A stretch of 64,000 nucleotides of DNA from positions 1 through 64,000 of the forward strand of contig JAPLFH010000049.1 of assembly GCA_026390815.1 (NCBI GenBank), in the 5' to 3' direction. Of this stretch, positions 25,782 through 45,910 are shown one piece after another. The position numbers were made by a program, and so were the translations under genes. Position 1 is the stretch's first letter; each line of letters opens with the position of its first letter. The notes beneath the pieces were generated by a model. It made no database searches. It was not told the origin of the DNA and saw nothing but the letters and a program-made list of their open reading frames with translations. The stretch comes from Ignavibacteriales bacterium (GTDB lineage Bacteria; Bacteroidota; Ignavibacteria; Ignavibacteriales; SURF-24).

Positions 25782-26981
25782 ATGAACAAACTTTCGATTG
25801 ATAAAATTGAACTTAAAGGTAAAAGAGTTTTGGTAAGAGTAGATTTTAATGTTCCTTTAGATGAAAACTTGAAGATTACTGATGATATTAGAATTACATC
25901 TTCACTTCCTACAATAAAAAAGATCATCTCGGAAGGTGGAAAAGCAATTTTAATGAGTCATCTCGGAAGACCAAAGGGTGGTCCTAATCCTAAATACAGT
26001 TTAAAACCAACAGCAATTAGATTATCTGAATTACTTGGTGTGGAAGTTAAAATGGCTCCTGACTGCATTGGCGATCAGGTGAAAGCGATTGTAAATTTGT
26101 TGAAAGATGGTGATGTTCTAATTTTAGAAAATGTAAGATTCCATCCTGAAGAAGAAAAAAATGATCCGGAGTTTGCAAAGAAGTTAGCTGAATTGGGAGA
26201 TGTTTACATTAATGATGCATTTGGCAGTGCCCACCGTGCTCACGCTTCAACAGAAGGTGTAACTAAATACATTAAAGTATGCGCAGCAGGATATTTGATG
26301 CAGAAAGAATTGGATTATCTTGGTAAAGCTATCTCTGAACCAGAAAGACCATATGTAGCAATCCTTGGTGGTGCAAAAATTTCCGGTAAGATTGATGTTA
26401 TTCAAAATCTTTTTCCAAAAGTTGATACTTTGATTATTGGTGGTGGAATGGCGTATACTTTCTATAAAGCAATGGGATATGAAATTGGGCATTCTCTTCT
26501 TGAAGCAGAAAAAATTGATTTGGCAAAAGAAATTTTAGAAAAAGCAAAAACCGCCAAAGTAAATTTCTTGTTGCCTGTTGATGTTGTTGTTGCTGCGGAA
26601 TTTAAAAACGATTCTCCTTCTTCTGTAGTTGATATTAAAAATATTCCTGCTGATCAACAAGGATTAGACATTGGTCCAAAATCAATTGAACTTTTTAGCA
26701 AAGAAGTTCTAAAAGCAAAAACTGTTATTTGGAATGGTCCGATGGGTGTTTTTGAATTTGATAATTTTGCAAAAGGAACAGATGCAATTGCTAAGGCTTT
26801 AGTTGAAGCTACATCAAAAGGAGCTACCACCATAATTGGTGGTGGTGATTCTGCTGCAGCTATTAAAAAAGCTGGTTTGGAAGATAAAGTTTCTCACGTA
26901 TCAACCGGTGGTGGTGCTTCGTTAGAATTTTTAGAAGGAAAAATTCTTCCTGGAGTTGAAGCTCTTAATAATGCGGATTGA
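25782..26981 (+). CDS. pgk: Phosphoglycerate kinase
   Basis: Transfers phosphate from 1,3-bisphosphoglycerate to ADP, the first ATP-forming step of glycolysis. Signatures: [13 protein letters not shown] at the N-terminus, [22 protein letters not shown], the nucleotide-site [16 protein letters not shown] and the final GGGDSAAA. Length of 399 residues is standard for bacterial enzymes. A strong GGAGG at 25772-25776 supports the ATG. Its pairing with gap is a common glycolytic arrangement, here interrupted by an intrinsic terminator. A 14-base inverted repeat follows the gene. Confidence 0.97.
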
Positions 26982-26990
26982 TGAGTGCGG

Positions 26991-27031
26991 ATTGCGGATT
27001 GAAAAGTAATTTAAAAATTTCAATCCGCAAT
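26991..27031. repeat. 14-base inverted repeat after pgk, related to a second copy near 41915
   Basis: attgcggattgaaa (26991-27004) and tttcaatccgcaat (27018-27031) form a perfect 14-base stem with a 13-base loop. It has no T-run and may act as an mRNA 3 prime end. The right arm and the following bases (27021-27040) match 41915-41934 in 19 of 20 positions, so this belongs to a dispersed intergenic repeat. Confidence 0.7.
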
Positions 27032-27115
27032 CTGAAATCAGCATTCCGAAATAGTAAGATGAATCTTTTTTAGTCTTAAGATGTTTAACATATAAAAGAA
27101 TATAAAGGTAGATTA

Positions 27116-38537: not shown

Positions 38538-40607
38538 TTACTTTTCAACGGCGTTAATTAGTTTTTCAATGGCTGAAGTAACCATCAGTTCAACTTGCCC
38601 AAATGGTTGCTTTGCCACTTCAAGTAGCTTAAGATTTTTAGAATTCCAATCGCCGCCTACTTTTTTATTTGAAAGAATACTTTCAACTGCTTCCAATCCT
38701 GTCTGAGAAACTTTTGAAAGATTGACTGACATCGGTTCAATTTCCTTTAGCACTGGAGATAGTTTTATAAGTTGTGTTAATTTATCTTGATTGGATTTCC
38801 AGAGATTTAACCAGTGTTTAATTTCTTCAGCATACTTTACATTTTTTGTTGCTAAAAAAGCATCAACTGTTTTTTTAAATTTTCGTGCAACATTGGATTC
38901 AGGTTGAGATGCATCCACCACCCGCGTGTATGGTGATTGCTGTGTGTACTTTACTCCTTGTGAATGACGAGTATAAATTTTTACAGGTTCAACTACATCC
39001 ACTAATGTTTTTAAGGGTGAAGTATCATTATTATTTGTCAGCCTCCGCAGCATCATCTCCTGGTTTTTAAAATGGTTTAATCCCAGGTCCTCAAGTTGAA
39101 AACTGATCACGTCAAGTCGGCGATACATATCTTCAACATCTTTAATGTTTTCCGGAGACCAAAGTCTTTCTGCTATTGCTGCTGTGCGGGGCCAAATTCT
39201 TGAATCAACATTTTCCGGTGTTACAAGCTCTGCCCACTGGGTTACTTCTCCACCAAGAATTTTTTTCTTTTCTTCATCGCTTAGTTTAGAGCCGGAAGGA
39301 ATTGGATCATTCAGGTAATGAAATTCCGCAGGCTGAATCAGATCAATGTAATAACCGTTTGAAAGAATTCCCATATAACCTTTTTTTGCCGATTCAATTA
39401 ACGCTTCAGTTCCTCTCCACGATTGAATGACAATGTTTGTTGGCATTTGAGGGTGAAGAATTTCATCCCAGCCGATCATCTTCTTGCCATTCTTCGTTAA
39501 GATTTTCAGAATTCTATTATTAAAGTATGCTTGAAGTGAATGGTTATCCGGAATATTATTTTTCTTCATAAACTCCTGGATGGATTTATTTTCTTTCCAC
39601 TGCTTGCCATTATTTTCATCACCGCCTATATGAAAATATTCATCAGGAAAAAGCGCTGCCATTTCGCCAAAAAATTTATCAAAGAATTCATATGTTGGTT
39701 CAATCGTTGGATTAAATGTTGGATCAAATACTCCCCAGTTCCTTTCAATTTTATACGGACCTGGCGCGCCTGACTGTCCGGCAGGCAGGCTTGCCAATTC
39801 CGGGAAAGCAAGAAACCATGCTGTTGAATGCCCGGGTACATCAAACTCAGGGATAACTCTTATTCCTCTATCGGCAGCATATTTAATTATGTCTTTAATT
39901 TGTTCCTGCGTAAAATAATTTCCATCGGAACAAAGTTTTTGAATTTGAGGATACACTTTGCTTTCAACTCTTACTCCCTGGTCATCACTTAAATGCCAGT
40001 GGAAAACATTTAACTTAAGTGCAGCAAGTCCATCCAGATTTCTTTTAATTACATCAACCGGCATAAAGTGGCGGCTTACATCAATCATCAATCCACGCCA
40101 AGGGAATCGCGGAGCATCTTCTATTTGAACAGATGGAAACCAGTAACCTTTTTCATCAGAGCTTAAAAGTTGAGTAAGAGTTTCCAATCCGCGTAAAGCT
40201 CCCAGATCAGTTTCTGAAGTCAGCTCAACTTTTGATGAAGTTACTTTTAAACTATAAGATTCATCTTCATTAAGTTTTATTTTACCAGAACGATTACAAG
40301 TGATTATCATTTGGCAAGTATCGCTGTTGCTTTGTTTGGTAATAAAATCCTGTGGAAAGAATAATCCGGTTCTTCCGGATAACCTTCTCAATACTCTTGT
40401 TGCATATTGGTAGATTCTTTCATCAGGATTTCCTTTTATAGCGATGGAAAAATTATTTTGGAGTATAAATTTTCCATCAAGCATAGTAATTTTTGCCGGT
40501 ACAGGCATCAGATTTAATTTTAATTTGTCTTGTTGTGGAATAATTATGGAAGTAAAAAGTAAAGTGAAGAGAAAAATTTTGATTGTAAAATTTAATCGTT
40601 TCATCAT
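38538..40607 (-). CDS. Beta-N-acetylhexosaminidase, GH20
   Basis: Secreted exo-glycosidase removing terminal GlcNAc or GalNAc by substrate-assisted catalysis. Signal peptide (about 1-25), GH20b non-catalytic domain (about 35-165), then the catalytic barrel with WHLSDDQG and the catalytic pair Asp330-Glu331 in HIGGDEN; WRGTEALIESAKKGY and GGEVTQWAELV follow. The C-terminal 130 residues are helical and not catalytic. 689 residues. Unusual: residues 274-283 (LPAGQSGAPG) come from a short palindromic repeat inserted in frame in a loop of the barrel. Likely acts on cell-wall amino sugars or chitin-like glycans. Confidence 0.93.
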   Translation of the reverse strand: MMKRLNFTIKIFLFTLLFTSIIIPQQDKLKLNLMPVPAKITMLDGKFILQNNFSIAIKGNPDERIYQYATRVLRRLSGRTGLFFPQDFITKQSNSDTCQMIITCNRSGKIKLNEDESYSLKVTSSKVELTSETDLGALRGLETLTQLLSSDEKGYWFPSVQIEDAPRFPWRGLMIDVSRHFMPVDVIKRNLDGLAALKLNVFHWHLSDDQGVRVESKVYPQIQKLCSDGNYFTQEQIKDIIKYAADRGIRVIPEFDVPGHSTAWFLAFPELASLPAGQSGAPGPYKIERNWGVFDPTFNPTIEPTYEFFDKFFGEMAALFPDEYFHIGGDENNGKQWKENKSIQEFMKKNNIPDNHSLQAYFNNRILKILTKNGKKMIGWDEILHPQMPTNIVIQSWRGTEALIESAKKGYMGILSNGYYIDLIQPAEFHYLNDPIPSGSKLSDEEKKKILGGEVTQWAELVTPENVDSRIWPRTAAIAERLWSPENIKDVEDMYRRLDVISFQLEDLGLNHFKNQEMMLRRLTNNNDTSPLKTLVDVVEPVKIYTRHSQGVKYTQQSPYTRVVDASQPESNVARKFKKTVDAFLATKNVKYAEEIKHWLNLWKSNQDKLTQLIKLSPVLKEIEPMSVNLSKVSQTGLEAVESILSNKKVGGDWNSKNLKLLEVAKQPFGQVELMVTSAIEKLINAVEK
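39769..39789. repeat. Palindromic repeat inside the GH20 coding sequence
   Basis: A 21-base imperfect palindrome, cctg-a-ctg-t-ccggcaggcagg, lies in frame and adds about nine residues (LPAGQSGAP) between ELAS and GPYK of the enzyme. Sequences of this kind, giving LPAG-type peptides, are known to me as small interspersed palindromes that insert into genes in Bacteroidota and candidate phyla; family identity is from memory. Locally GC-rich against an AT-rich gene. Confidence 0.7.
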
Positions 40608-40919
40608 TCCTCTGGTGTTTGTTTAATAAAGATTCTTTTCTGGTTCAAATATATAAAATGAAGTTGTAAAGAGAAATTTTATTTTGAGAAAACGGGAATG
40701 GGAAAAGGGGAATGGGACCTGGGGAACGGGACGAGGGAAAGGGGAAAGGAAAAGGGAACGGGACGAGGGAACGAGGAAAGGGAAAACAGAACTTATAGAA
40801 ATTCCTGACATTCATTTATTTTAGTATTTGACATTTCAGTTACTCCAAACAATTATTTCCTATCTATTTTAAATTTTGTATTATTAGGTAAATAAAAATT
40901 ATTTCCGGAGATAAGATAA
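40608..40919. repeat. Intergenic region with purine-only tract
   Basis: The 312 bases between the divergent GH20 and SDR genes contain, at about 40685-40795, a stretch of more than 100 bases that is almost wholly purine on the plus strand and built from variants of gggaa, gggaacgggacg and gaggaaaggg. There is no gene. The rest is AT-rich and must carry promoters for both sides. The tract could form triplex or other non-B structure, or be a decayed short-repeat array. Confidence 0.75.
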
Positions 40920-41711: not shown

Positions 41712-41963
41712 GTTTAGAGTGAAGAGTGAAGAATGTAGAGTGAAGAGTGCAGAGTGAAGAACGTAGAATAATGAATCGGAGAAAGGGGGAATCGGCGAAG
41801 CGGAGAATGAAAAAAAGAGAATGGGAGAAACTGTGTACTGAAGATCATGATCGGAGATCGCCGATTCTCCGTTTCTCCGATTCTCCGATTCTTGGTTCTG
41901 TAATTAATAATCGGCAATCCGCATTCTGAAATCAAATTTTTCCTTAAAGTAGAGGACGCAAAA
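41712..41963. repeat. Intergenic micro-repeat island
   Basis: The 252 bases hold several short-word arrays: gagtgaagagtgaagaat units (41715-41765), then gaatcggagaaa (41773-41784), matched by its perfect inverse at 41872-41883, with more copies of ctccgattctccg near 41862-41892. A 20-base element at 41915-41934 matches 27021-27040 in 19 positions. No gene is supported; small frames on both strands here are artefacts of the repeats. Confidence 0.8.
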
Positions 41964-45678: not shown

Positions 45679-45749
45679 TAAATATTTTCCAGGAATCAAA
45701 TTATTCTAAATACTAAACCAGCATAGTTGGAAACAAACATTTAAGAATT

Positions 45750-45813
45750 GGCGAAACGGCGAATCGGCGAAACGGTGAATTGGCGAAACGGTGAATTGGC
45801 GAAACGGCGATCT
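45750..45813. repeat. Four tandem 16-base repeats
   Basis: Four direct units of 16 bases (consensus ggcgaaacggtgaatt) occupy 45750-45765, 45766-45781, 45782-45797 and 45798-45813, followed by ctccgattctc words like those at 41862-41892. Located between aroF and tyrA. Locally much richer in GC than the surroundings. Confidence 0.88.
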
Positions 45814-45910
45814 CCGATTCTCCCACTCTCCGATTCTGCATTTTTAAGAATATACATTTCACACATATTTTGCCAAATTGCTCCTGCCTTATGAGTTTGT
45901 TGCAGTACTT

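Follow-up and report, generated by a model that had tools for sequence, protein, structure and literature searches.

A palindrome of exactly 21 bp has been inserted, in frame, into a hexosaminidase gene of an Ignavibacteriales bacterium, and it belongs to a family that is found at unrelated sites in many bacterial genomes, including inside itself. That one word should be inserted within and between genes across so many bacterial groups suggests, as far as can be judged from sequence, an extremely small and little-known mobile element. We propose a dispersed family of 21-bp hairpins that insert exactly and with no detectable target-site duplication, that are copied in trans and that are subject to selection on the reading frame; taken as a whole, this explanation seems to us quite probable.

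The window, that is, the whole stretch of 64,000 nucleotides that was analysed, carries at 38538-40607 on the minus strand an intact gene of 689 residues for a GH20 beta-N-acetylhexosaminidase, recognized by a Pfam profile match (GH20, PF00728, E=2.4e-97) and by a sequence match in the PDB (6yhh, E=6.1e-207). Inside this gene, at 39769-39789, lies the GC-rich imperfect palindrome that an earlier note on this DNA had pointed out, and it is indeed in frame there: its (+)-strand reading is CCTGACTGTCCGGCAGGCAGG, while the coding (minus) strand reads CCTGCCTGCCGGACAGTCAGG and is translated as LPAGQSG (residues 274-280). A search of 59 related genomes for homologues yielded 30 loci, the thirtieth row being the gene itself. 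In each of the other 29 (tblastn alignments L046-L074) there is one gap of exactly 7 residues, ELAS-------APGPYK, placed two residues later in two rows and shifted in a few distant ones, so that none of the homologues shares the insertion. Since the relatives read ELAS-APGPYK, the APG that follows the insertion is ancestral and the added residues are seven. The earlier note had counted ten (LPAGQSGAPG, 274-283) and had supposed that ELAS and GPYK would join; the in-frame insertion and its ELAS border stand, but its length is reduced to seven residues and the relatives join ELAS to APGPYK, not directly to GPYK.

The same result is obtained at the DNA level, where the gene minus the 21 bp reads GAATTGGCAAGCGCGCCAGGTCCGTAT and the closest relative reads GAACTTGCAAGCGCTCCTGGGCCATAT. 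The codons on either side agree with those of the five relatives checked as DNA, and joining positions 39768 and 39790 (minus strand) restores the ancestral junction of GCAAG with CGCGCC; the placement is ambiguous by one base, with a C on both sides. In the solved relative 6yhh the loop at the insertion site has a greater natural length, and this loop therefore tolerates changes of length. The best explanation that we can offer is that the palindrome was inserted in its own lineage, after the split from the sequenced relatives.

Within the window, 39769-39789 is the sole match to the 17-base core at up to 3 mismatches, with 0.02 expected by chance, and an Rfam search of the window gave no match. 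Searching the whole genome (4.52 Mb in 59 contigs) revealed that other copies do exist, at 10 distinct places counted at up to 3 mismatches, with none for the reversed-pattern control. Copies are in frame in an adaptor-like protein, at the end of a histidine kinase, in a lipoprotein, in a methylase-like protein and in methionine synthase, all names that come from reading the translations and not from family searches. A second copy of this genome, in the efflux-adaptor-like gene, is again a clean 7-residue insertion: of the 18 relatives aligned, 16 show a gap of exactly 7 residues and the remaining 2 have gaps of other net size. For the copy in the histidine kinase (L010), local paralogues were sought as empty sites, and their alignments are too distant for this purpose. 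Two copies, L011 58-78 and L013 1501-1521, have a common left flank and a common variant word; the latter sits right at the lipobox of a lipoprotein-like gene, between the serine of the signal peptide and the cysteine.

Concerning the other genomes, copies are present in 2 of the 5 genomes of the family sample, and near copies in 43 of the 395 genomes of the phylum sample, where the reversed control gave 1 hit in total. A relative assembled as a single contig (G024) has 77 matching rows, 18 of them exact, some places being counted on both strands. The species-level genome collection has at least 117 stretches with an exact copy. Among the matches listed, Bacteroidota are the commonest by record title, and Patescibacteria groups, Omnitrophota, Nitrospirota, Dehalococcoidia, Elusimicrobia, Thermodesulfobacteriota and others also appear; the sources of the exact copies among these matches are mostly metagenome assemblies, with some named isolate genomes. 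The 21-mer is also found in 43 stretches of viral contigs, where some of the matches in GC-rich DNA may be due to chance. One viral contig of 28.8 kb, IMGVR_UViG_3300038551_000082 (L230, L234, L242, L261), is crowded with copies, some inside others, and is a possible carrier between hosts. The GC skew of G024, computed over 20 sampled stretches in search of a replication-strand bias, was too noisy and located no origin. One of these stretches, at the start of contig C1 (L381 1-8000), has 60% GC, against 27-37% in the 19 others of this AT-rich genome.

The size of the unit is fixed by self-nested copies: L234 and L242, which come from a single viral contig, contain three otherwise perfect copies that are each split by a further perfect one, at position 8, 13 and 15 respectively. 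A clean difference of 21 bp is not seen for all copies: two of them, when compared with sister species, fall within longer indels, of about 213 bp and about 128 bp. The precise insertions dispersed at unrelated places, together with the copies within copies, lend support to the suggestion in the earlier note that the palindrome may be mobile and may tolerate coding sequence.

To describe the insertion sites we considered 123 of them with unlike flanks. Direct repeats of 2-6 bp showed no excess over shuffles at these sites, and a target-site duplication of the MITE type is therefore lacking in this size range. The base at -1 is G in 55, A in 42, C in 21 and T in 5 sites (97 purines), and that at +1 is C in 65, T in 38, G in 16 and A in 4 (103 pyrimidines). 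Identical single flanking bases (k=1) were counted 37 times against 21 expected, and because of this modest excess a duplication of 1 bp is possible. Flank repeats of 7 bp were found at 3 sites, with 0.05 expected, and agree with insertion in 7-bp tandem arrays, which indeed hold copies in L121, L166 and L208. Hairpins scoring at least 6 hold 10 of the 101 genomic sites, against 1.9 in shuffles, and the other 91 are outside strong hairpins. The copy of L164 is in the exact middle of a host hairpin. The centre of a cruciform was tried as a general target and rejected, the positions being asymmetric on average and about a tenth of the sites lying in hairpins. The window has further repeats of its own: an inverted repeat with 42-nt arms and GCGGATTG units at 26963-27059 (the unit in which the L121 copy is inserted), arrays of CGGCGAAACGG/CTCCGATTC type units with inverted copies at 41749-41899 and 45721-45837, and an intergenic GGGAA-rich stretch of low complexity at 40688-40790.

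As a single strand, CCTGACTGTCCGGCAGGCAGG folds as ((((.(((.....))).)))), a hairpin of 7 pairs with one mismatch, and the consensus of the family has an 8-pair fold with a hairpin z of about -4. We compared the covariation under nested, crossing and short-hairpin pairing models and found two double changes for each. Several subtypes recur, all of 21 bp, among them CCTGCCTTGCCGGCAGGCAGG, CCTGCCCGTCCGGCAGGCGGG and CCTGCCTGTTCGGCAGACAGG, and in CCTGCCCGTCCGGCAGGCGGG the change is coordinated and compatible with crossing pairs only. This last subtype recurs exactly in many genomes. A related word of crossed type, CCTG CCCG TTCCG CAGG CGGG, is in frame in a gene of the own genome (L033 1497-1520, contig C6). 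Outside the 21-mer family, crossed 4-base words have a weak excess in the loci.

Open frames of at least 180 residues cover 93 of the 148 sites from the species and viral collections (64 genomic and 29 viral), with the caution that in GC-rich DNA such a frame is not always a gene. One phase, which reads xLPxGQAG or close variants, is used by 31 of the 64 genomic copies (p=4e-9 against 1/6). Of the other genomic copies, 14 use one of the two remaining frames in that orientation and 19 are read in the opposite one, and consequently the bias is one of frame and not of orientation. We read this bias as selection on the peptide. It is weaker in viral contigs, with 8 of 29 copies in that phase. When copies of other genomes were compared with solved structures, UvrA and RadA each had exactly 7 extra residues, and TrpRS and MetRS, compared with their PDB relatives, had net 9 and 5 extra residues, not 7.

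Which enzyme might move such a unit can be evaluated for two candidates. The 21-mer resembles REPs in its hairpin and in its size (REPs are short hairpin repeats of 20-40 bp), and it could be a REP or REPIN whose hairpin a RAYT (Y1/HUH) transposase cuts and pastes as single-stranded DNA. Y1 genes (PF01797) are present in 48 of the 52 genomes examined, and 4 of the 20 stretches picked around Y1 genes also carry the 21-mer. However, three RAYT loci of copy-positive genomes have their own, different, AT-rich palindromes alongside the gene, and the presence of RAYT does not track that of the 21-mer: a RAYT relative occurs in 203 of the 395 genomes against 43 with the 21-mer, the copy-positive genome G224 has zero Y1 genes, and the mean Y1 count is 4.3 in copy-positive and 2.9 in copy-negative genomes (p=0.08). 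For these reasons RAYT was rejected as the mobiliser. Moreover, unlike REPs, the 21-mer has no GTAG/CGTC tag beside it, with flank frequencies near background beyond +-1 base; in the few genomes considered, the RAYT genes are not accompanied by repeats that match it, and it is often in open frames (the 93 of 148 sites above), whereas REPs are mostly extragenic. A RAYT origin seems to us unlikely. A subgroup of RAYT genes with nearly perfect AT-rich palindromes of their own, of AAAAGCCCAACTTCTT type, alongside (L304 1989-2031 and 2618-2650; L308 4709-4741 and 5318-5352; L314 2472-2505) is probably a new REP/RAYT pair.

The second candidate is a DUF559 (Vsr-like) nuclease, by or with whose genes, themselves inside genes between palindromic repeats, the 21-mer might spread. 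DUF559 genes are on average more numerous in the 25 copy-positive genomes (3.24) than in the 27 negative ones (1.30; p=0.001, uncorrected for kinship), and 21-mers adjoin DUF559 in L012, in L162 (one on each side) and in L173. On the other hand, the copy-positive genomes G012 and G289 are without a DUF559 match, a match is found in only four species-collection loci of the set scanned, and the adjacent 21-mers are explicable by insertion into other palindromes that flank DUF559. We judge this candidate slightly less probable than the previous one. DUF559 domains were seen in frame within methionine synthase (before a ATVKGDVHDIGKN stretch) and within HsdR-like type I restriction proteins (L012 1-2985; L295, L297, L300, L301; L296, L298), gene names being taken from translations, and are bordered by PSPxEGE and LGEGxGGA peptides resembling translated palindromic repeats.

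A conserved functional DNA motif (a terminator, an uptake site or a binding site), produced by point mutations under selection and not by insertion, could also give one word of hairpin shape in unrelated organisms, but this reading is contradicted by the empty sites, with exact presence or absence of 21 bp in genes, and it also has against it the self-nesting, the low copy number and the position within reading frames, so that we regard it as very improbable. Even less credible is a chance insertion of a GC-rich word accompanied by chance matches, or an assembly or adaptor artefact, which might account for part of the copies seen in GC-rich viral DNA but is contradicted by the reversed-pattern controls (no match in the own genome, a single hit over the 395 phylum genomes) and faces the many copies in a single-contig genome, the copies in named isolates and the recurring subtypes.

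The nearest kinds to the 21-mer are the small dispersed repeats of cyanobacteria and, secondly, the Rickettsia palindromic elements (RPE). The Nostoc repeats SDR1-8, reportedly described by Elhai et al. (2008, Genome Res. 18:1484), are said to be 21-27 nt long, hairpin-forming and dispersed, to be inserted in tandem heptamers, in other small elements and in their own copies, and to be without coding capacity; they are not known to have a mobiliser. With this description the 21-mer shares the length, the dispersed hairpin, the self-insertion and the insertion in 7-bp arrays. Judged by the description, it differs from the SDRs in its sequence, in its spread and in its place within genes: the SDRs are reportedly confined to one cyanobacterial group, while the 21-mer, a different word, spans Bacteroidota, Patescibacteria, Omnitrophota, Nitrospirota and others, and it often lies in open frames, where one reading frame is favoured. 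The GC clusters of yeast mitochondria are likewise short, GC-rich and palindromic, and are scattered through AT-rich DNA, in some cases within genes; they are longer than the 21-mer and belong to an organelle. RPEs are palindromic and interrupt, without a change of frame, metabolic genes that are unrelated to one another (PMC10969869, PMC3733652). The 21-mer is likewise a palindrome inserted in frame in unrelated genes, but it is 21 bp long and widespread, while RPEs are of about 150 bp and described from Rickettsia. In the open-access literature, six words of 13-16 bases from the 21-mer, the peptides LPAGQAG and LPTGQAG and four variants of them were not found, and topic searches there returned no description of it; the shorter word GGCAGGCAGG does occur in 106 papers, with no study of bacterial repeats, by title, among the matches listed.

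Returning to the hairpin family proposed at the outset, the element codes for nothing, which is why we think it would be copied in trans by an enzyme, or by a process of replication, that works on the single strand in its folded form; an enzyme encoded outside the element is the most likely agent. Joining would take place at a preferred purine-pyrimidine step and sometimes in exposed hairpin loops or tandem repeats. Many insertions in genes keep the frame open because 21 bp are seven codons and stop-free frames are available. Selection would then retain mostly the xLP(A/T/I)GQAG readings, a short polar peptide, where extra residues are tolerated, as in the GH20 loop. The copies would be nearly neutral parasites, and we attribute no function to the peptide.

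More tentatively, and with some doubt, the 21-bp hairpin may be a genuine mobile element, one of the smallest on record and common to many phyla, which a widespread and unrecognised cell enzyme would copy in trans to purine-pyrimidine steps without target duplication, steadily adding LPxGQAG to housekeeping proteins. For annotators, the peptide LPAGQAG/LPTGQAG can serve as a marker of 21-bp insertions. If the hairpin is mobile, a gene-free element of 21 bp over many phyla would lower the size limit for mobile DNA, the question of which enzyme copies so short a hairpin would become testable, and essential proteins would naturally be supplied with in-frame insertions of seven residues.
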